A stretch of DNA of 56,345 bases from Desulfobacteraceae bacterium (GTDB lineage: Bacteria > Desulfobacterota > Desulfobacteria > Desulfobacterales > JAABSP01): NCBI GenBank assembly GCA_011390345.1, contig JAABSP010000032.1:1-56345 (forward strand), read 5' to 3'. Of this stretch, positions 2,446 to 50,317 are shown in pieces (the stretch's first letter is position 1; the number at the start of each line of letters is the position of its first letter). The notes under the pieces were generated by a model. That model saw only the letters and a program-made list of their open reading frames with translations, had not been told where the DNA came from and ran no database searches. The translations under genes were made by a program, and so were the position numbers.

Positions 2446-3372
2446 CTATTCCTCCTCATCCGTACCCAGATAGGCCTCGATGACCTTCGGGTTTTCCTTG
2501 ATCTCCTCGGGATTTCCCTCCGCGATCTTCCGGCCGTATTCGATCACCACCAGATGCTCGCAGGCCCGCATCACCAGCCCCATGTCATGCTCGATGAGAA
2601 TGATCGTCAGGCCCCTTTCCCGCATCTTCGCGATGAGTTGGATCAGGGCATCGGTCTCCTGCTCGTTCATGCCCCCGGCCGGCTCGTCGAGTACCAGCAT
2701 TTTCGGGCCCGTGGCCAGGGCCCGGGCGATCTCCAGCAGACGCTGATTTCCGTAGGACAGATGGCCCCTTTCCCGCATCTTCCCGATGAGGTCGATCAGG
2801 GCATCGGTCTCCTGCTCGTTCATCCCCCCGGCCGGCTCGTCGAGTACCAGCATTTTCGGGCCCGTGGCCAGGGCCCGGGCGATCTCCAGCAGACGCTGAT
2901 TTCCGTAGGACAGATTCTTGGAAAGGGATTGGGCCTCTTCCCGAAGGCCCACGAATTCGAGCTGCTCCCGAGCCAGTTCCAGCGCGTGGGCCTCCTCTTT
3001 TTTCCCGGCCGGGGTCCTGAACATCGCGCGGAATGCGCCGGTGCGCATCCGGCAGTGGCATCCGGCCAATACGTTCTCCAGCACCGACAGATTCTGAAAG
3101 AGCCGGATGGTCTGGAAGGTTCTGGCGATTCCCAGCATCACCACCTTATGGGTGCGCCACCCGGTGATCTCCTGGTCGTCGAAGAGGATCTGGCCATTGT
3201 CCGGCTTGTAGTTGCCGGTGATCAGGTTGAAGACGGTGGTCTTGCCCGCGCCGTTGGGGCCGATCAGGCCCATGACCGCGCCGCTTTGAACGTCGAAAGA
3301 GACGTTGTCCACAGCGGTCAGGCCGCCGAAGTTCTTGGTCAGTTCTTTCAGGCTGAGTATCGTGCTGCTCAC
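2446..3372 (-). CDS. livG: Amino-acid ABC transporter ATP-binding protein LivG with internal 51-residue duplication
   Basis: A LivG-family ATPase with Walker A GPNGAGKT at residues 38-45. The usual length is about 255 residues; this one has 308. The excess is a direct in-frame duplication: the signature LSYGNQRLLEIARAL, Walker B MLVLDEP and the D-loop region occur at about residues 154-203 and again at 205-254. The second copy then continues into the normal H-loop segment LTIILIEHD. The start is GTG at 3372 and overlaps the livM stop by 4 nt. The duplicated block would insert a second signature/Walker B subdomain before the switch histidine, so activity is uncertain. Apart from this the gene is intact. 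Confidence 0.93.
   Translation of the reverse strand: MSSTILSLKELTKNFGGLTAVDNVSFDVQSGAVMGLIGPNGAGKTTVFNLITGNYKPDNGQILFDDQEITGWRTHKVVMLGIARTFQTIRLFQNLSVLENVLAGCHCRMRTGAFRAMFRTPAGKKEEAHALELAREQLEFVGLREEAQSLSKNLSYGNQRLLEIARALATGPKMLVLDEPAGGMNEQETDALIDLIGKMRERGHLSYGNQRLLEIARALATGPKMLVLDEPAGGMNEQETDALIQLIAKMRERGLTIILIEHDMGLVMRACEHLVVIEYGRKIAEGNPEEIKENPKVIEAYLGTDEEE
2610..2915. repeat. Tandem duplication of 153 bp inside livG
   Basis: Two adjacent 153-bp units, 2610-2762 and 2763-2915, match at about 149 of 153 positions. The four mismatches all fall in the first 65 bp of the plus-strand unit. Two codons change in the protein (Asp/Gln and Gly/Ala) and one difference is silent. The unit is exactly 51 codons, so the frame is kept. 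There is no matching sequence beyond the unit edges. Confidence 0.97.
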
Positions 3373-7391: not shown

Positions 7392-8234
<843 letters not shown>

Positions 8235-8254
8235 TTGTTCTAACCACCAACCAA

Positions 8255-8562
8255 TAAACACTAACCACTATGCACCAAAAAGGAGAAACGACAAATGATC
8301 ATGATTCGTTCCATCGTAAGGCCCGAAAAGGTGGATGATGTGCTGGCGGCACTGATGGATGCGGTCTTTCCAGCGGTAAGTGGACAGAGTGGAGGGGGAA
8401 ATCCTATGCACCAACCACCGACCACCGACCACTAACCACTAAACACTAACCACTATGCACCAAAAAGGAGAAACGACAAATGATCATGATTCGTTCCATC
8501 GTAAGGCCCGAAAAGGTGGATGATGTGCTGGCGGCACTGATGGATGCGGTCTTTCCAGCGGT
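8255..8562. repeat. Direct repeat covering the nifI1 leader and 5' coding end
   Basis: Segment 8255-8377 (123 bp) recurs without change at 8440-8562, an offset of 185 bp. Each copy holds a CACTAACCAC-type string, the ribosome-binding site AAAAAGGAG and the first 28 codons of nifI1. Between the copies lies a 62-nt segment ending in a dense CCACCGACCACTAACCACT string. Only the second copy continues into the full gene. Confidence 0.97.
8295..8435 (+). pseudogene. Truncated 5' copy of nifI1
   Basis: An ATG with the same ribosome-binding site as nifI1 opens a 46-codon frame. Its first 28 residues equal the start of NifI1 (MIMIRSIVRPEKVDDVLAAL...). It then reads unrelated residues into the repeat string and stops at TAA 8433-8435. 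It lacks the T-loop and trimer core, so it cannot be a PII protein. If translated, it would make a short peptide just before the true nifI1 and could lower or alter its translation. This effect is inferred. Confidence 0.85.
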
Positions 8563-8836
8563 CACCAAGATATCGGTTGTCGGCAGGGGAAAGCAGCGGG
8601 GCATCAAGATCGGCGAGATCACCTATGACGAGATTCCCAAAGAGCTGCTGCTGCTGGTGGTGAAGGACGAGGACAAGGATTTCGTGATCAACACCATTAT
8701 CAAGGCGGCCAAGACCGGGGAGAAGGGCGCGTTCGGCGACGGCAAGATCTTCGTGTCGCCGGTGGAGGAGGTCTATACCATCAGCTCCGGGATACGGGAG
8801 ATGCCGGACGGCACCACAATGGAGGTGGCGATATGA
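8480..8836 (+). CDS. nifI1: PII-like nitrogenase regulator NifI1
   Basis: A 118-residue GlnB-family protein starting MIMIRSIVRPEKVDDVL. It carries VVGRGKQRGIKIGEITYDE in the T-loop region and a C-terminal GDGKIFVSPVEEVYTI block. In methanogens NifI1 and NifI2 form a complex that inhibits dinitrogenase after ammonium addition, sensing 2-oxoglutarate. Placement between nifH and nifD is diagnostic. AAAAAGGAG precedes the start, and the stop overlaps the nifI2 start (ATGA). A broken copy of its 5' end lies 185 bp upstream. Confidence 0.95.
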   Translation: MIMIRSIVRPEKVDDVLAALMDAVFPAVTKISVVGRGKQRGIKIGEITYDEIPKELLLLVVKDEDKDFVINTIIKAAKTGEKGAFGDGKIFVSPVEEVYTISSGIREMPDGTTMEVAI

Positions 8837-9210
8837 AGGAGGTGATGGCCGTAATTCGGATGAATATGATCAACCAGACCAAAAAGGAGCTGGCCCAGGC
8901 CGGGATCTCGTCGGTCACGGCAAAGGATGCTCTGGGAAGGGGGAAGGGGCTGGTCGATCTGAATCTGCTGAAAGGGGCCGAGCAGGGGTATGAGGAGGCG
9001 GTCTTCCAGTTGGGCCAGAGCGGCCGGCTGATCCCCAAGCGGGTGCTCTTCATCGTGGTACCGGACAAGCTGGTGGACCTGACCGTGAAGACCCTGATCC
9101 AGGTCAACAAGACCGGCAAGTCGGGCGACGGCAAGATATTTGTGATGCCCATCATGGATGCGGTGCGGGTCCGGACCGGTGAGGCCGGGGATCGGACCCT
9201 GGACGGCTGA
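8833..9210 (+). CDS. nifI2: PII-like nitrogenase regulator NifI2
   Basis: A 125-residue GlnB-family protein (MKEVMAVIRMNMINQTKKEL) with GRGKGLVDLNLLKGAEQGYEE in the T-loop region and GDGKIFVMPIMDAVRVRTGE near the end, typical of NifI2. It acts with NifI1 in post-translational switch-off of nitrogenase. Its start overlaps the nifI1 stop by 4 nt, implying coupled translation and balanced amounts. Its last codons, GGACGGCTGA, are echoed as repeats in the following spacer. Confidence 0.95.
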   Translation: MKEVMAVIRMNMINQTKKELAQAGISSVTAKDALGRGKGLVDLNLLKGAEQGYEEAVFQLGQSGRLIPKRVLFIVVPDKLVDLTVKTLIQVNKTGKSGDGKIFVMPIMDAVRVRTGEAGDRTLDG

Positions 9211-9263
9211 TCCGGACGGCTGATATGTAGGGTTGATATGTAGGGTTGATCCGGATGGCTGAT
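9201..9263 (+). repeat. Short tandem repeats in the nifI2-nifD spacer
   Basis: Units in order: GGACGGCTGAT at 9201-9211 (containing the nifI2 stop) and 9214-9224, ATGTAGGGTTGAT at 9225-9237 and 9238-9250, and CCGGATGGCTGAT at 9251-9263. All end in TGAT. The array starts inside the nifI2 coding end. Confidence 0.9.
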
Positions 9264-9290
9264 ATCGAAAAGGATGCAGGAGTGTGATTT

Positions 9291-10952
9291 ATGTCAGATT
9301 ATATCGAAGGAATCATGGATACGGAGTGTGAGGTCATCGATCCGGTCGAGGTGAAGGAGGAGATGATCGTCCGGTACCCGACCAAGGTGGCCCGGAAGAG
9401 AGCCAAACAGATCGTTTTAAACCGGATCGGGGAGGAGGGCGAGGTTCCGCCGATCCAGGCCAATGTGCGGACCATTCCCGGGATCATCACCCAGCGGGGG
9501 TGTTGCTACGCGGGTTGCAAAGGGGTGGTGCTGGGGCCCACCCGGGATATCGTCAACATCACCCACGGCCCCATCGGGTGCGGCTTCTACAGTTGGCTCA
9601 CAAGGCGCAACCAGACCGACGCGGATGCCTCTCCGGACGGGCACAACTTCATGCCCTACTGCTTCTCCACGGACATGCAGGAGGGGGAGATCATCTTCGG
9701 CGGGGAGAAGAAGCTGAAACAGGCGATCCAGGAGGCCTATGACATCTTCAAACCCAAGGCCATCGCGGTCTTTTCCACCTGCCCCGTGGGGCTCATCGGT
9801 GATGATGTCCATTCGACGGCAAGGGAGATGAAGAAGAAGCTGGGAATCAATGTCTTCGGCTTCAGTTGCGAAGGGTACAAGGGGGTGAGCCAGTCCGCGG
9901 GGCACCATATCGCAAACAACGGGATCTTCACCCATGTGGTGGGTACCGATGACACGGTGGGGGCCGGCGAATATCGGATGAACCTGCTGGGGGAGTACAA
10001 CATCGGCGGGGATGCTTTTGAGATCGAGCGGATTTTCGAGAAGTGCGGTATGACTTTGGTTTCCACTTTCAGCGGGAATTCGAGCATCGACGGGTTTGCC
10101 AACTCCCATACTGCGGATCTGAATTTGATTATGTGTCATCGGTCCATCAACTATGTGGCCGAGATGATGGAGAAGAAGTTCGGGATTCCGTGGTTGAAGA
10201 TCAATTTTATCGGGGCCGAGGCCACGGCCAAGTCGCTGCGGAAGATCGCGGCCTATTACGGGGACCAGAAGCTGATGGACCGGGTGGAGGCGGTGATCGA
10301 AGAGGAGATGCTGCCGGTGAAGGCCGCGCAGCGGGAGGTTCGGCCCAGAACCGCGGGGAAGCGGGCTATGCTTTTTGTCGGGGGGTCCAGGGCGCACCAT
10401 TATCAGGAGCTGTTTTCCGAGATGGGGATGGAGACGGTTTCAGCCGGGTATGAGTTCGGGCACCGGGATGACTATGAGGGCCGGAAGGTGCTGCCGAGCA
10501 TCAAGATCGATGCGGACAGCCGGAATATCGAGGAGCTGGAGATTCACCCGGACCCGGAGCGGTATCGGCCGCGGAAGAGGCCCGAGGAGATCGAGAAGCT
10601 CAAGGCCGCGGGGCTGGGAGTGGCCGACTATGAGGGGATGATGCCCGAGATGAAGGAAGGGGTCATGATCATAGATGATATCAGCCAGTATGAGACGGAT
10701 AAGCTGATCGAGATCTACAAGCCGGATATCTTCTGTGCCGGGATCAAGGAGAAGTATGCGGTGCAGAAGCACGGGATTCCGCTGAAGCAGCTTCATAGTT
10801 ATGACTATGGGGGGCCATATGCGGGGTTTGCAGGGGCGGTGAACTTCTACAAGGAGATCGACCGGATGGTGAACAGCAAGATATGGGGGTATATCCGGGC
10901 GCCCTGGAAGGAACACCCGGAGTTGTCGGGGAGTTATGCTTTTGAGTCTTGA
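9291..10952 (+). CDS. nifD: Nitrogenase molybdenum-iron protein alpha chain
   Basis: A 553-residue NifD. P-cluster cysteines are visible at Cys71 (QRGCCYAGCKG), Cys97 (HGPIGCGFYSW) and Cys164 (FSTCPVGLIGDD). The FeMo-cofactor ligands are Cys282 (LIMCHRSINY) and His502 (LHSYDYGGPY). An insertion around residues 395-455, absent from Azotobacter NifD, is typical of anaerobe-type NifD. No anfG/vnfG gene lies between nifD and nifK, which supports a molybdenum rather than an alternative enzyme. AGGAG precedes the start. The protein pairs with NifK as the catalytic tetramer. Confidence 0.97.
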   Translation: MSDYIEGIMDTECEVIDPVEVKEEMIVRYPTKVARKRAKQIVLNRIGEEGEVPPIQANVRTIPGIITQRGCCYAGCKGVVLGPTRDIVNITHGPIGCGFYSWLTRRNQTDADASPDGHNFMPYCFSTDMQEGEIIFGGEKKLKQAIQEAYDIFKPKAIAVFSTCPVGLIGDDVHSTAREMKKKLGINVFGFSCEGYKGVSQSAGHHIANNGIFTHVVGTDDTVGAGEYRMNLLGEYNIGGDAFEIERIFEKCGMTLVSTFSGNSSIDGFANSHTADLNLIMCHRSINYVAEMMEKKFGIPWLKINFIGAEATAKSLRKIAAYYGDQKLMDRVEAVIEEEMLPVKAAQREVRPRTAGKRAMLFVGGSRAHHYQELFSEMGMETVSAGYEFGHRDDYEGRKVLPSIKIDADSRNIEELEIHPDPERYRPRKRPEEIEKLKAAGLGVADYEGMMPEMKEGVMIIDDISQYETDKLIEIYKPDIFCAGIKEKYAVQKHGIPLKQLHSYDYGGPYAGFAGAVNFYKEIDRMVNSKIWGYIRAPWKEHPELSGSYAFES

Positions 10953-10967
10953 GGAGAGTGAAAAGGG

Positions 10968-11105
10968 GAGAAGGGGAGGGCAGGAAAGGACAAAATGACC
11001 CAAAGGACATAAACGACATAAAGGACAAAGGACTGGATGGACAAAAGGACGAGGGGCCCAAATGACGAAGGGGCCCAAATGACAAAAGGACGAAGGGACA
11101 GAGGG
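10968..11105 (+). repeat. Purine-rich degenerate repeats in the nifD-nifK spacer
   Basis: The 160-nt spacer is almost wholly made of variants of GGACAAA, GGACATAA and GGACGAAGG, plus two copies of GGGGCCCAAATGACRAA at about 11045-11080. It has no credible gene and no strong hairpin. The ribosome-binding site of nifK (GAGGGGGAAAAT) sits at its end. Confidence 0.85.
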
Positions 11106-11112
11106 GGAAAAT

Positions 11113-12489
11113 ATGCTTTTAAGACATACGACGGCTGCGGTTGCTGAGAGGTCTGCTTTGACGGTGAACCCGGCCAAGACCTGTCAGCCGATTGGGGCGA
11201 TGTATGCGGCTTTGGGGCTGAATGGCTGCCTGCCGCACAGTCATGGGTCCCAGGGGTGCTGTGCCTACCACCGAAGCACTTTGACGCGGCACTATAAAGA
11301 GCCGGTTATGGCGGGGACCAGCTCTTTTACCGAGGGGGCTTCGGTCTTCGGGGGGCAGGCGAATCTGGTGCAGGCGATCAACAATATGTTCACGATCTAT
11401 GAGCCCGAGGTGATCGCGGTGCATACGACCTGCCTCTCGGAGACCATCGGGGACGATCTGCCGCAGATTATCTCAAAGGCTCGGGATGATGGGAAGATTC
11501 CCGCGAGGAAGTTCGTGATCCATGCCAATACGCCCAGCTATGTGGGAACCCATGTGACCGGATATGCCAATATGGCAAAGGCGATGGTCGATTATTTTGC
11601 GGAGAAAAACGGGGTTCGGTCCAGGGCGGTGAACATCGTTCCGGGGTTTGTGGAGCCTTCGGATATGGCCGAGATCCGGCGGATTGCCGGAGAGATGGGG
11701 ATTACGCCCATCCTCTTTCCTGATACTTCGAATGTGCTGAACGGGCCCTTGACGGGAAAGTTTGCCATGTATCCGGAGGGTGGTGTAACGGTTTCGGAGC
11801 TGACCAGAAGCGGGAGCAGCAAGGCTACGGTTGCGCTGGGAAGGCTGGCTGCGGGGCCGGCTGCCCGGGCAATGGATGTGAAGTGCAAGGTTCCCTGCCA
11901 CATCCTGGACCTGCCGGTGGGATTGAAGAAGACCGATGAATTCGTGGATGTCCTGCGGCAGCTTGCCGGGGTTCAGGTTCCCGATTCCCTGGAGGTGGAG
12001 CGGGGGCAGCTTCTGGATGTGATCTCGGATATGCACCAGTACCTGCACGGGGTGAAGGTGGGGATCGTGGGAGACCCGGATCAATTGATCGCGCTGACCG
12101 ACTTTCTCGTGTCGGTGGATATGATCCCGGTTCACATCGTCACCGGAACGCCGGGGAAGAAGTTTGAAAAGCGGATCAGGGAGATCGTAAAGGATGTGCC
12201 CCATCGGGTCAATGTGAGCGCCGGGGGCGACATGTTCCTCTTCCACCAGTGGGTCAAGAACGAGCCGGTGGATCTGATGATCGGGAACACCTACCTGAAA
12301 TACATCGCCAGAGACGAGGATATTCCGCTGCTTCGTTACGGATTCCCGATTCTCGACCGGGTGGGGCACAGCTATTTCCCCACGGTCGGGTACCGGGGCG
12401 GCATCCGGCTGCTGGAGAAGATCCTCGACGCGCTGCTGGACCGGAAGGATCGGGATTCGCCGGAAAGCGGGTTCGAGCTGGTGATGTAG
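11113..12489 (+). CDS. nifK: Nitrogenase molybdenum-iron protein beta chain
   Basis: A 458-residue NifK of the short type, without the N-terminal extension of proteobacterial aerobes. P-cluster ligands are Cys24 (NPAKTCQPIGAM), Cys49 (HGSQGCCAYHR) and Cys107 (VHTTCLSETIGDD). The TSSFTEGASVFGGQ segment carries the serine region near the P-cluster. The protein ends ESGFELVM, a NifK-like tail. It forms the alpha2-beta2 protein with NifD. Nothing in the reading frame is broken, but its last codons recur in the next spacer. Confidence 0.97.
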   Translation: MLLRHTTAAVAERSALTVNPAKTCQPIGAMYAALGLNGCLPHSHGSQGCCAYHRSTLTRHYKEPVMAGTSSFTEGASVFGGQANLVQAINNMFTIYEPEVIAVHTTCLSETIGDDLPQIISKARDDGKIPARKFVIHANTPSYVGTHVTGYANMAKAMVDYFAEKNGVRSRAVNIVPGFVEPSDMAEIRRIAGEMGITPILFPDTSNVLNGPLTGKFAMYPEGGVTVSELTRSGSSKATVALGRLAAGPAARAMDVKCKVPCHILDLPVGLKKTDEFVDVLRQLAGVQVPDSLEVERGQLLDVISDMHQYLHGVKVGIVGDPDQLIALTDFLVSVDMIPVHIVTGTPGKKFEKRIREIVKDVPHRVNVSAGGDMFLFHQWVKNEPVDLMIGNTYLKYIARDEDIPLLRYGFPILDRVGHSYFPTVGYRGGIRLLEKILDALLDRKDRDSPESGFELVM

Positions 12490-23288: not shown

Positions 23289-25268
23289 ATGGAAAACATT
23301 ACAAGTAACCGAGATGAAACCGAAGAACTGCAGGAAAACGAAGTATCCGAAGTCGCGGTAGCGGAGAATGAAGCCGAAACGGCCGAGGTCGCGGTAGAGG
23401 AGAACGAAGCCGAAACGGCCGAAGATGCGGTGGCGGAGAGCGAAGCCGAAACGGCCCCGGAAGAGAATCTGGGCGAGAATCCGGAAGAGGAGACCGTTGA
23501 CGCGGTCATTTCCGCGCCGCCGGAAGAGAATGTGGACCCTTTCGCTTCGATCGAAGAAGAGATGGCGGAAGAGGATGCCTTCGAGGGCGAAGAGAGCATG
23601 GAGCAGCTCATGGATATGTATGAGGAGAGCTTCAAGCGCTTTGCCGAAGGAGAGGTCGTCACCGGCCGGGTCATCTCGGTGGACCGGGATCATGTGCTCG
23701 TGGACATCGGCTACAAATCCGAGGGGCAGATCTCCATCCATGAATTCCGGAACCAGGAGGGGGACGCGGCCGTCGAGGTCGGGGATTCCGTGGAAGTGAT
23801 GGTGGAGTTCTGGGACGACGAGGAAGAGGTCGTCAACCTCTCCAAGGAGAAGGCCGAAAAGGTCAAGGTCTGGGATGCCATCAAACAGGCATACGAGGCC
23901 GAGGGCACGGTGGAGGGAACCATCACCAACCGGGTCAAGGGCGGCTTTTCCGTGGATATCGGGGTTCAGGCGTTTCTGCCGGGCTCCCAGGCAGATCTTC
24001 GGCCCATCCGCAACCTTGACGAGATGGTCGGCAAGACTTTCGAGTTCAAGATCCTCAAGTTCAACCGGAAACGGAGCAACATCGTGCTCTCCCGGCGGGT
24101 GCTGCTGGAGGCCGAACGGGAGGAGCAGCGGTCCAAAACCCTCGAATCGATTCACGAAGGCAAAGTGGTCGAAGGGATCGTCAAGAACATCACCGAATAC
24201 GGCGTATTTGTCGATCTCGGCGGTGTGGACGGTCTGCTGCACATCACCGACATCTCCTGGGGGCGTGTAAAACACCCCTCGGAACTCTTCTCCATCGGCG
24301 ACAAGATCGAAGTCAAGATTCTGAACCTGGATCTGGAGAAGGAGCGGGTATCCCTGGGCATGAAGCAGCTCACGGAAGATCCGTGGAGCCATGCGGCCGA
24401 ACGGTATCCGGTCGGCTCCCACATCAATGGCCGGGTGGTCAGCCTCACCGACTACGGCGCATTCGTGGAGCTGGAAGAGGGGATCGAGGGTTTGATCCAT
24501 GTATCCGAGATGTCCTGGACCCGGAAGATCCGCCACCCCTCCAAGGTGGTCACGGCCGGCGAGGATGTGGAGGCCGTGGTTCTCGACATCAAGCCCGAAA
24601 GCCGCAGGATCTCTTTGGGAATGAAGCAGGTTGTCCCCAACCCGTGGGATGTGATCAGCGAGAAGTATCCGGTGGGAACGACCATCGAGGGGCGGATCAA
24701 GAACATCACCGATTTCGGGATCTTCATCGGGATCGACGAGGGGATCGACGGGCTGGTGCATATCTCCGACATCTCCTGGACCAAGCGGATCAAGCATCCT
24801 TCCGAGATCTACAAGAAGGGCGACATCGTCCGGGCCATTGTGCTGGATATCGAAAAGGATAACGAGCGGTTCTCCTTAGGCATCAAGCAGCTCCAGTCTG
24901 ACCCGTGGGAGACCGTGGACGAGCGGTATGATGTGGGCAAGGAGATCACCGGAACCGTCACCAACGTCACCGACTTCGGCATCTTCGTGGAGCTGGAGGA
25001 GGGGATCGAGGGGCTGGTGCATGTCTCCGAGATCAGCAAGGAGAAGATCAAGACCCCGATCGGCCGGTACAATGTGGGCGATGTGATCACCGCCAAGGTG
25101 ATGAACATCAACAGCGACGAGCGCCGCATCGGCCTTTCCGTGAAGCGGCTCGACGAGGATGATGACCAGGCTCTGTTGAGCGAGTATGTCAACAAGATCG
25201 GGCCTGCCACATCCACCTTCGGGGAGATCCTCCGGGAGAACCTCAAGGAGAAGCTCAACGAGAAGTAA
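23289..25268 (+). CDS. rpsA: 30S ribosomal protein S1 with acidic repeat-bearing N-terminal extension
   Basis: A 659-residue S1, about 100 longer than the 557 of E. coli. From about residue 118 onward there are six S1 RNA-binding domains with repeated VTDFGIFVELEEGIEGLVHV-type cores (for example NITDFGIFIGIDEGIDGLVH). Residues 1-110 are highly acidic and include three 12-residue repeats at 21-56. S1 binds mRNA and supports initiation. GGAAAACATT begins the coding region after a weak ribosome-binding site (AAGGGGGAT). A strong terminator follows. The acidic tail has no assigned function. Confidence 0.95.
   Translation: MENITSNRDETEELQENEVSEVAVAENEAETAEVAVEENEAETAEDAVAESEAETAPEENLGENPEEETVDAVISAPPEENVDPFASIEEEMAEEDAFEGEESMEQLMDMYEESFKRFAEGEVVTGRVISVDRDHVLVDIGYKSEGQISIHEFRNQEGDAAVEVGDSVEVMVEFWDDEEEVVNLSKEKAEKVKVWDAIKQAYEAEGTVEGTITNRVKGGFSVDIGVQAFLPGSQADLRPIRNLDEMVGKTFEFKILKFNRKRSNIVLSRRVLLEAEREEQRSKTLESIHEGKVVEGIVKNITEYGVFVDLGGVDGLLHITDISWGRVKHPSELFSIGDKIEVKILNLDLEKERVSLGMKQLTEDPWSHAAERYPVGSHINGRVVSLTDYGAFVELEEGIEGLIHVSEMSWTRKIRHPSKVVTAGEDVEAVVLDIKPESRRISLGMKQVVPNPWDVISEKYPVGTTIEGRIKNITDFGIFIGIDEGIDGLVHISDISWTKRIKHPSEIYKKGDIVRAIVLDIEKDNERFSLGIKQLQSDPWETVDERYDVGKEITGTVTNVTDFGIFVELEEGIEGLVHVSEISKEKIKTPIGRYNVGDVITAKVMNINSDERRIGLSVKRLDEDDDQALLSEYVNKIGPATSTFGEILRENLKEKLNEK
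23349..23456 (+). repeat. Three 36-bp tandem repeats in the rpsA N-terminus
   Basis: Units at 23349-23384, 23385-23420 and 23421-23456 encode EVAVAENEAETA, EVAVEENEAETA and EDAVAESEAETA. The units differ at a few positions, and the last 15 bases (GAAGCCGAAACGGCC) are the same in all three. Confidence 0.95.
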
Positions 25269-32218: not shown

Positions 32219-32322
32219 TCCTGTCCACAATAACCGGTTCTAAACAGACGGATTCGAAACGGAGTCAATACGAAAAAGTCCCTGAAAACAGGGGAGATTT
32301 ATCGCTATTAAAGGAAATGCCG

Positions 32323-35300
32323 ATGTCGCCAAACCCCCGCAATTTCGTCCATCTCCATGTCCATACCCAGTACAGCCTTCTGGATGGGGCCATCCGCCTG
32401 GAGCCGCTTCTGGAAAAGGCCAAAGCCTACGGCATGTCATCGGTGGCCATGACGGACCACGGAACCATGTTCGGTGTGGTGGAGTTCTATGAAAAGGCCC
32501 TGAAGGCCGGATTGAAGCCGATCATCGGCTGTGAGTGCTATATGGCGCCCCGGAAGCTGACCCACAAGACCGCAGCCGATGCCAAAGGGATGTCCCACCT
32601 GGTGCTGCTCGCGGAAAACCAGAAAGGGTATCAAAACCTCTGCCGGCTCGCTTCGGTTGCCCAGTTGGAGGGGTTTTACTACAAGCCCCGGATCGACAAG
32701 GAGCTGCTGCAGGCCCATTCCGAGGGGCTGATCGCGCTCTCGGCCTGCCTCCACGGAGAGATTCCGCGGCTGATCCAGGCCGGAAAAAGGGAGCAGGCCG
32801 ACGAGGCGGCCCGCTGGTATAATAACCTCTTTGGCGAGGGGAACTTTTTTTTAGAAGTACAGAGCAACGGCATCGAGGAGCAGACCGGGGTCAACCAGAC
32901 CCTGATGGACATGAGCGGCCGCCTATCCATCCCCCTTGTGGCCACCAATGACTGCCACTATCTGGACAGAAAGGATGTCCGGGCCCACGAGGTACTCCTC
33001 TGCATCCAGACCGGCAAGACCATGAACGACGGGGACCGGTTCCGCTTCAGCACGGATCAGCTCTATTTCAAGACCCCGGACGAGATGGCAGCCGAACTGG
33101 GGGAGTATCCGGACGCGATCGAAAACAGCGGGGCCATTGCCGAGCGGTGTGAGATCGAATTCGATTTCAAGACCTACCATTTCCCCCGGTTTTCGGCCGA
33201 TGAATCGGTCTCCGCGGACGATCTCTTCGACCGCGCGGTCCGGGAGGGGTTTGAAAACCGGCTTTCGGCCATTACCGCAAAACATCCGGATCTGGACAGG
33301 AAAAAGTATGAAGAGCGGCTTGAGTATGAGGTATCCATCATCAAGCAGATGGGCTTTTCCGGCTATTTTCTCATCGTGGCCGACTTTATCCGGTTCGGCA
33401 AGGAGAACGGGGTTCCGGTGGGGCCGGGACGGGGATCGGCCGCGGGCAGCATGGTGGCCTATTCCATGGGGATCACGGACTTGGATCCCATCGAGGGGCC
33501 GGGACGGGGATCGGCCGCGGGCAGCATGGTGGCCTATTCCATGGGGATCACGGATCTGGACCCCATCGAGCACGGCCTCATCTTCGAACGGTTTTTGAAC
33601 CCTGCCCGGATCTCCATGCCGGATATCGACGTCGATTTCTGCATCAACGGCCGGGAGCGGGTCTTCAAGTATGTGGTGGACCGGTACGGCGGCGGGGACT
33701 ATGTGGCTCAGATCATCACCTTTGGAAAGCTCAAGACCCGCGCGGTGATCCGGGATGTGGGCCGGGCCCTGGAGATCCCCCTCAAGGAGGTGGACGGGAT
33801 CGCGAAGATGGTTCCGGATGTACTCAACATCGGGCTGGATGACGCGCTCAAGCAGGAGCCCAAGCTCAAGGCCCTGATGGATAGCCGGAAGGATGTCAAA
33901 GAGCTGATCGACATCTGCCGGGTGCTGGAGGGGCTTCCGAGACACGCCTCCACCCATGCGGCCGGAGTGGTGATCGGGGATAAGCCCCTGGTCGATTACC
34001 TCCCTTTGTACCGCGGGAAAAAGGGGGAAGTCGTGACCCAGTTCGACATGAAGCGGGTGGAGCAGATCGGGCTGGTGAAGTTCGACTTTCTGGGGCTGCG
34101 GAACCTCACCGTGATCGAGGAGACTTTGAAGCTGATCCGCGAGAGCGGCCTGGAACCGCCGGATCTGGTCCATCTCGATCTCGATGACGCGGCCACCTAC
34201 GAACTCCTCTCATCCGGGGATACCACCGGGGTCTTCCAGTTGGAAAGCTCCGGCATGAAGGATCTTCTCCGAAGGCTGCGGCCCGCGTGTTTCGACGATG
34301 TCATCGCGCTGGTGGCCCTCTACCGGCCCGGCCCTCTGGATTCGGGGATGGTGGACGACTTTGTAGAGCGGAAACATGGCCGGCGGGAGGTGACTTATAT
34401 AGTTCCCGAACTTGCGCCGATCCTGAAGGAGACCTACGGCGTCATAGTCTATCAGGAGCAGGTGATGAAGATCGCGGGAGCCCTTGCCAACTACTCGATG
34501 GCCGAGGCCGACGGCCTCAGAAAGGCGATGGGAAAGAAGATCGCCGCAATCATGGCCGAGCATCGGGACCGCTTCATCAAGGGCGCTGTGGAGAACAGCA
34601 TCCCCAAGGAGAACGCGGTCCAGATTTTCGACCTGATGGAGAAGTTCGGCGGATACGGCTTCAACAAGTCCCACTCAGCGGCCTATGCCCTGATCGCCTA
34701 CCAGACCGGATACCTCAAGGCCCACTTCCCCCTGGCCTTCATGGCCTCTCTTCTCACCAGCGAGATGCACTCCATCGACGGCGTGGTCAAGTTTATCGCG
34801 GAGTGCCGCAGCCACAACATTTCGGTGCTGCCGCCCGACATCAACGAGAGCGGCAAGGTCTTCACGGTCGCAGAGGATAAGATCCGCTTCGGGCTGGTGG
34901 CCGTCAAGAACGTGGGGGAGGGGGCCATCGACGCGATCATCGAGGCCAGATCTGAAAAGCCCTTTGAATCCCTCTTCGACTTCTGCGAGCGGGTGGATCT
35001 CAAAAAGGTGAACAAGCGGGTGATCGAAAGCCTGATCCGGTGCGGAGCCTTTGACCGAACCGGTGCAAATCGGGCCCAGATGATTGCGGCCCTGGAGGAT
35101 GCCCTGGAGTATGGCCAGCGGGTCCGAAAAGAGCGGGACGATCCCCAGATGGGGCTTTTCGATATGGGCGACATTGCTGCAGCCCCCATCAATCCTCCGG
35201 CCCTTCCCGATATTTCCGAGTGGGAGGAGAACGAACGGCTTGCCCTGGAGAAGGACTCGCTGGGCTTTTACATCACGGGCCACCCCCTGAAGCGGTTCGA

Positions 35301-35928
35301 GGATCTCATCCGCCGGTTTTCCGGAACGAGCACCCTGACGCTGAAAGAGCGGGAGGATGGCGCCTTTGTCCGGATCGGCGGCGTGGTGACCCAGGCCAAG
35401 ACCATCCGGACCAAAAAGGGGGACCCCATGGCCTTTGTCACCCTGGAGGATATGGAGGGGACCGTGGAGGTTATCGTCTTCAACTCTCTGTATGAGACCG
35501 TGGGAGATCTTCTGGGGGAGGAGGTTCCGGTGATCGTGGAGGGACAGGTGCAGCAGGAGGAGGAGGGCGCGAAGATCCTTGCCGAAGCCATGATCAAAAT
35601 GGATCAGGCCGAGGAGACCTGGGCCGATAAGATCCTCTTCAACCTGGATGCGGAAAAGACGGACCGGGAGGGGCTGGAGCAGTTGAAAAACATTTTGAAG
35701 AAATACCCCGGAACCTGTTCGGCCTTTATCCAGCTCAACTTCAACGGCAAGGCCCGAACCCGGATTTCAATCTCCGAGGCGATCCGTGTGAAGGCTTCTG
35801 CGGAGATGACCGAGGAGGTCAACGGGCTTTTCCGCGGAAATGTGGTGGAGACCGAGTGCGCGGCCCCCGGATTGAAACAGGGGGAGAACAGCGGGAACGG
35901 GAGAAGAAGATGGGCGCGGTCGGGCTGA
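32323..35928 (+). CDS. dnaE: DNA polymerase III alpha subunit with 25-residue internal duplication
   Basis: A replicative polymerase with an N-terminal PHP domain ([16 protein letters not shown]) and palm motifs ending [15 protein letters not shown], which hold the catalytic aspartates. Later [18 protein letters not shown] and [20 protein letters not shown] are typical. An OB fold lies near residue 1000. Length is 1201 residues from ATG 32323, chosen because AAGGA is optimally placed; 32317 is an alternative. Residues 367-391 ([16 protein letters not shown]...) recur at 392-416. This glycine-rich loop contacts the incoming nucleotide in known structures, so the insertion just before the active site is striking. 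It overlaps coaE. Confidence 0.95.
   Translation: [1201 protein letters not shown]
33421..33570 (+). repeat. Tandem duplication of 75 bp inside dnaE
   Basis: Units 33421-33495 and 33496-33570 differ at three positions, all within the codons for Asp-Leu-Asp (GAC TTG GAT versus GAT CTG GAC), and all silent. The 25-codon unit keeps the frame. Removing one unit restores the normal family sequence [20 protein letters not shown]. Confidence 0.97.
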
Positions 35929-49649: not shown

Positions 49650-49784
49650 TCATTGCACACTTTTCTCTAAGGAAAACCCCTTTTCCAGAAAGATGCCCAT
49701 TTTCTCACCGGGTGGGGCATCTTCTGCTCCGGATATCGAAAATATAGCGAAAAAAGAGAGCATACCCAAAAATATTTTTCTCAT
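49650..49784 (-). CDS. Possible 44-residue secreted peptide (doubtful)
   Basis: An ATG at 49784 overlapping the restored stop of the decayed AAA/PD-(D/E)XK gene opens MRKIFLGMLSFFAIFSISGA, which looks like a signal peptide, followed by 24 polar residues. It ends 54 nt before the phosphoesterase lipoprotein. No family is recognised; it could equally be an accident of the decayed region. Confidence 0.25.
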   Translation of the reverse strand: MRKIFLGMLSFFAIFSISGAEDAPPGEKMGIFLEKGFSLEKSVQ

Positions 49785-50206
49785 TTCGTACCCCATGATT
49801 TCTTTGATTTTACCCAGACTTCCTTGCCCCGAAAAAGCGACGGCAAGCTGCAGAATCTCTTTTACCCCGGCCCCTCGCAGCTCCGCGTCATAGCCGCGGG
49901 ATTCGATCTGCGCCATCGCCTTTTCCAACGCCTTCTCCGGCGTCTCCTTCCGGCGGACATTGACCCTTTTGAATTCCATAAGAATCCCTTTGCGCTCCCG
50001 ATCTGCCGGGAGCAGGATCACTTCGGCCGGCGCTTCTATGATCTCTTTGATAAAGGAACTCTTGTCCACATAGAGATATCCTGCGGACCTGACAGCAGGA
50101 TCACTTCGGCCGGCGCTTCTATGATCTCTTTGATAAAGGAACTCTTGTCCACATAGAGATATCCTGCGGACCTGAGCTTGTAAAAGTCGGAGACCCCGAT
50201 GGCCAT
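49781..50206 (-). pseudogene. Remnant of an AAA-ATPase-like / PD-(D/E)XK nuclease-like gene
   Basis: The start MAIGVSDFYKLRSAGYLYVD matches the N-terminus of the AAA-ATPase-like family whose members carry a C-terminal PD-(D/E)XK nuclease-like domain. The frame is broken by an 83-bp tandem duplication. The second copy then joins directly to the C-terminal nuclease-like part (LMEFKRVNVRRKETPEKALE and AQIESRGYDAELRG), skipping the P-loop and most of the protein (normally about 500 residues). A further shift near 49825 separates AVAFSG from the expected KEVWVK. It is clearly inactive. Confidence 0.85.
50011..50175. repeat. Tandem duplication of 83 bp in the AAA/PD-(D/E)XK remnant
   Basis: 82 bp at 50011-50092 recur unchanged at 50094-50175. 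The offset of 83 is not a multiple of three and breaks the frame. The two copies show no differences, unlike those in livG and dnaE. Confidence 0.97.
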
Positions 50207-50317
50207 CCGGGGGGCTGCATTTTATCCATTTGATATTCTTCCGTTAAAAAGGATCTGCTCCGAACGATGCCCAATTAGGACTCGCCATCACCGCAGCAAA
50301 AATGGTAAGCTCGATAT

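Follow-up and report, generated by a model that had tools for sequence, protein, structure and literature searches.

Does the bacterium whose DNA is described here replicate with a polymerase that carries an active-site loop twice, or does the doubling exist only in the genome record? The window (the whole stretch analysed, 56,345 nucleotides, contig C76 1–56345) belongs to a draft genome that spans 4.79 Mb over 199 contigs and is listed with 97.28% completeness and 0.7% contamination. It encodes dnaE, the DNA polymerase III alpha subunit, at 32317–35928 on the forward strand. The product is 1,203 residues long as assembled, matches NCBIfam PRK05673 and TIGR00594 (with the best stretch from residue 394) and has the PHP, pol3_alpha, finger, HhH and OB domains all present in Pfam.

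Within dnaE a 75-bp unit occurs twice, in tandem and in frame, as copy 1 (33420–33494, forward strand) and copy 2 (33495–33569, forward strand), and the reading frame remains open through both. The unit translates as GPGRGSAAGSMVAYSMGITDLDPIE, with HGLIFERFLNPARISMPDIDVDF coming after it, and sits shortly upstream of PDIDVDF, which in this family contains the catalytic aspartates. The two copies are 96% identical, differing at 33480/33555 (C/T), 33481/33556 (T/C) and 33486/33561 (T/C). The affected codons read GAC-TTG-GAT in copy 1 and GAT-CTG-GAC in copy 2, all silent (Asp-Leu-Asp). Comparison of the copies thus bears out the in-frame tandem repeat with three silent differences given in a preliminary description of this DNA; its coordinates, 33421–33570, capture the array correctly but are shifted by one base from ours (33420–33569), because one ambiguous base at the junction, a G, is common to both copies.

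Of the 225 single-base changes that the unit could undergo, 57 are synonymous, and three silent changes out of three would arise by chance with a probability of about 0.016 if changes were random. Sequencing error is therefore a poor explanation of the differences, as the preliminary description had already argued. What that description did not remark on is where they lie. The copies share an exact run over their first 60 bases, and the differences, at unit positions 61, 62 and 67, are confined to the last 15. The chance that all three would fall in the 15 bases at either end is 0.013, an even spread being assumed. For the silent differences, two strain alleles are as good an account as long selection.

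The doubling sets this dnaE apart from those of its relatives. We examined 109 relatives' loci: 29 from relatives' genomes, identified in a search of 58 genomes that included the window's own, and 80 named loci, the best 80 of 589, which may share species with the first set. Counted from the start of the loop through PDxDxDF, the stretch is exactly 48 residues long in 107 of the 109, against 73 in the window, and the remaining two (L024 and L027) have an intein at the loop; a doubled GPGRGS loop was seen in none of the 109. The window protein reaches 73–74% identity with its closest relatives. Among the best 80 of 589 named matches, most are metagenome-assembled genomes of Desulfobacteraceae/Desulfobacterales, so the genome appears to belong there. 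Profile matches from NCBIfam and Pfam are split into at least two pieces at residue 394, where copy 2 begins, and the single GPGRGS segment of the Escherichia coli alpha subunit (2HNH) aligns to both copies. In the titles and opening lines of abstracts of the papers found, a DnaE with a doubled loop is not described; excerpts of one paper (PMC3919608) mention no duplication beyond that of a tandem OB-domain in two Lactococcus PolCs.

The preliminary description had also raised a second dnaE or polC elsewhere in the genome. At the thresholds used, none was found in the 97%-complete draft, whose sole identified C-family polymerase is the insert-bearing dnaE; a paralogous DnaE or PolC was accordingly rejected as donor of the extra unit. 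When the genome was searched for stretches similar to 33100–33900, only the window itself matched (40 of the 73 first-look candidates scored). A leftover piece with the other dnaE allele was likewise not found in the genome, by a search in which short pieces could be missed, as the contigs of <3 kb sampled among the first 60 stretches read N.

The dnaE repeat belongs to a wider class on this contig. A direct-repeat scan identified four cases in the window in which the exact run common to two nearby copies falls short of the distance between them, with run/spacing of 60/75 (dnaE), 91/153 (livG), 82/83 (a PDDEXK_9-family gene fragment) and 123/185 (a P-II gene). The preliminary description is right that the region is rich in local duplications: besides dnaE, the contig has three more of this form. 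In all four an identical run meets a divergent or unmatched end: 3 differences in 15 bases in dnaE, 4 in 62 in livG, 1 in the PDDEXK fragment and unmatched flanks in the P-II case.

In livG, a branched-chain amino-acid ABC transporter ATPase, a 51-residue segment (LSYG... to ...RERG; 2610–2915, reverse strand) is doubled in frame. Its 153-bp unit occurs twice, with 91 identical bases and then four differences, all in the last 62 bases of the unit (chance 0.05, either end allowed), some of which change amino acids (DLIG versus QLIA). A control search for LivG in four genomes at E 1e-60 gave matches in the window's own genome and in one of the same family (G001), whose LivG has one LSYG unit, whereas that of the window has two, at residues 154 and 205.

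The P-II repeat (8255–8562, forward strand; P-II in Pfam, nifI1-like by position) consists of 123 identical bases, 185 apart, comprising the upstream region, the start codon and about 28 codons. The first copy (8255–8377) enters other sequence and then a stop, forming a truncated extra gene start; the intervening 62 bases close, as judged by eye, with a spacer resembling the one that precedes the gene. The surrounding region, 7407–12489, contains nifH, two P-II genes (nifI-like by position) and two nitrogenase component-1 genes (nifD/nifK-like), consecutively.

The PDDEXK_9-family repeat (50011–50175, reverse strand) has 82 identical bases followed by one difference, and its 83-base spacing places the two copies in different frames. 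A paralogue that could provide a single-unit control for this fragment was not found. By eye, the fragment (49650–50260) seems to be missing the gene's central part. Across the window, spacing is not a multiple of three in two of the four repeats, and of the three coding duplications, two keep the reading frame (chance of two or more of three, 7/27). Separately, a ribosomal protein S1 reading frame has a 36-bp repeat in 3.1 copies near its start (23347–23456).

To place these four cases we scanned 100 stretches of the genome outside the window (1,446,934 non-N bases; run ≥50, spacing ≤250), N bases being left out of the total and 8 of the first 60 stretches being wholly N. The sample contains perfect tandem duplications (for example, in L119, L149 and L206) and minisatellites. 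Three partial-run rows were returned, all in multi-copy arrays (L173, L203 and L208) and so dropped from the two-copy count, and no two-copy partial-run repeat was found in the 1,446,934 bases at these settings. That all four such cases lie inside the window corresponds to a binomial p of 2e-6, a descriptive value since the class was defined after the window was seen. Wider settings show further direct repeats, which were not counted: L119 at spacing 825, L120 at 869, L141 at 356 and at 68–210, and L152 at 642 and at 165 (run 37). The relatives' loci, 851,098 bases scanned with a run of ≥36 and a spacing of ≤400, gave two rows: a perfect 30-bp repeat (L054) and a partial one (L109), with a run of 53 and a spacing of 84, which lies right at the beginning of its locus and resembles, by eye, a degenerate array. 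Elsewhere in the sample, a perfect 52-bp tandem repeat (L206:2838-2942; G000:C61) shifts the frame of a universal-stress-protein-like gene, as judged by eye, and is possibly another join error. At a contig end, L141:19371-19616 (G000:C60) has repeats of about 35–39 bp spaced 68–72 bases, CRISPR-like in appearance.

The doubled loop is very probably not a real feature: it is absent from all 109 relatives' loci, its differences are gathered at one end, three more features of this kind lie on the same contig and the type of error is a described one. Judged from the sequence, the cell would in all likelihood have one dnaE unit, the doubled unit being a false join in the record. Two assembled pieces meeting in dnaE would have 60 identical bases in common; one would end with a 15-base tip representing a second strain's allele, and the other would start with the common 60 bases and continue in the first allele. 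Copy 1 is then the putative end of a strain-A contig and copy 2 the putative start of a strain-B contig. Gluing such pieces end to end, with the overlap uncollapsed, would yield the overlap twice, with allele differences in the tip only. A tip on the ending piece would give an identical run and then one-sided differences (dnaE, livG and the 82 + 1 case), and a tip on the other piece would give unmatched sequence ahead of the identical run (the P-II case). We infer both the joining step and the existence of two strains. A single cause, the end-to-end join, explains all four features of the contig, and the unmerged overlap of contigs from two strains, which the preliminary description had named as its alternative, emerges as the best-supported reading.

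The literature describes comparable errors. In the excerpts of one study (PMC7111523, Genome Res. 2020), local assembly errors are described and thought prominent in IDBA-UD assemblies, scaffold joins can retain duplicate overlap sequence with Ns between the copies, and non-unique sequence at scaffold ends is kept by some assemblers. Several observations count against a join. The published error carries Ns, whereas the window has none and, in the first 60 of the 100 stretches, neither do the sampled contigs apart from those that are N throughout. The error would apparently have to be concentrated in this contig, two of the coding duplications keep the frame, and a leftover piece with the other allele did not turn up. 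The run lengths (60, 91, 82 and 123) also point to no single k-mer length; multi-k assemblers could give several. Foreign DNA was considered for the window and gave no clear sign, composition being mostly within the genome range. The five segments between joins have tetranucleotide distances of 0.082–0.198 (64 genome stretches of >15 kb: maximum 0.199, mean 0.090) and a GC content of 0.566–0.590 (genome stretches: 0.502–0.584), with the first segment (2,762 bases, GC 0.590) slightly over the GC range.

A real, recent tandem duplication by illegitimate recombination, present in part or all of the population, is an unlikely alternative, in which the polymerase accommodates 25 extra residues as a loop or the mutation is harmful and short-lived. 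In bacteria, short tandem duplications that arise spontaneously are head-to-tail, with little junction homology, and are identical when young. The dnaE repeat is in frame with one base of junction microhomology, and the sampled genome holds other short perfect tandem duplications, such as those in L149 (66 bp) and L206 (52 bp); a recent duplication should, however, be identical as those are, whereas the dnaE copies have three one-ended differences. Such an event would also have struck the sole C-family polymerase found, and would leave four such features on one contig unexplained.

Far less probable is the reading that the preliminary description had favoured, a real, old and selected doubling in which two GPGRGSAAGS loops precede the catalytic aspartates and change fidelity or nucleotide handling. 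The silence of all three differences speaks for it, but these should then be spread along the unit, and direct repeats of 75 bp should, with age, collapse via slippage or recombination. A doubled-loop polymerase in long coexistence under selection also sits poorly with its absence from the 109 relatives' loci and with the three similar features on the contig. We modelled dnaE residues 249–793 with AlphaFold2, using an alignment with 20 relatives (mean pLDDT 75.0). The lowest stretch, model residues 122–150 (<50), is nearly all of copy 1 (121–145) plus the first residues of copy 2; blocks within copy 1 score 23–35, and the next two blocks, in copy 2, score 78 and 75. This very low confidence for copy 1 speaks against an established second loop, but it is alignment-driven: the alignment puts the relatives on copy 2, so the model says nothing firm on a real two-unit enzyme.

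The two intein-bearing relatives (L024:1-3903 and L027:1-3912), which belong to the same order, have an intein-like insert of about 415 residues exactly in the loop (GPGRG-C...HN-SAAGS). Pfam matches in the insert are to LAGLIDADG and intein-splicing domains, with the splicing match under the Pfam cut-off in L027. These inteins lie five residues into the unit, yet a mobile-element trace such as imperfect intein loss is scarcely credible and was rejected because the unit boundary differs from the intein site: the unit starts ahead of that site and contains no intein residues, and the same repeat form occurs at three other places on the contig, with no intein seen there.

If the doubling is an artefact, as we favour, its message is one of caution only. 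In the genome record, dnaE and livG would each carry a false insertion, a spurious partial gene would precede the P-II gene and a frame break would lie in the PDDEXK gene fragment; users of the record should treat these four features as joins needing checks. Exact runs that end in one-sided differences, where several occur on one contig, could be used to screen for such joins without reads. Were the doubling true, the window's dnaE would be alone among the 110 DnaE loci examined in having its active-site loop twice, and the organism's only replicative polymerase would have an altered nucleotide-contacting region in which silent changes had gathered over time.

Set against known systems, the window dnaE resembles the E. 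coli enzyme (2HNH) in domain order and motifs and, as assembled, differs from DnaE-type alpha subunits by 25 extra residues between the loop and PDIDVDF. With spontaneous tandem duplications it has the head-to-tail arrangement of copies in common, but differs in the clustering of its differences at one end. The closest likeness is to the metagenome-join error, as set out in the excerpts of PMC7111523: near-identical sequence on both sides of a join creates a false local duplication, as in the window. There the copies are separated by Ns, whereas those of the window abut or, in the P-II case, lie 62 bases apart, and each of the four window repeats has a one-ended difference or unmatched sequence.
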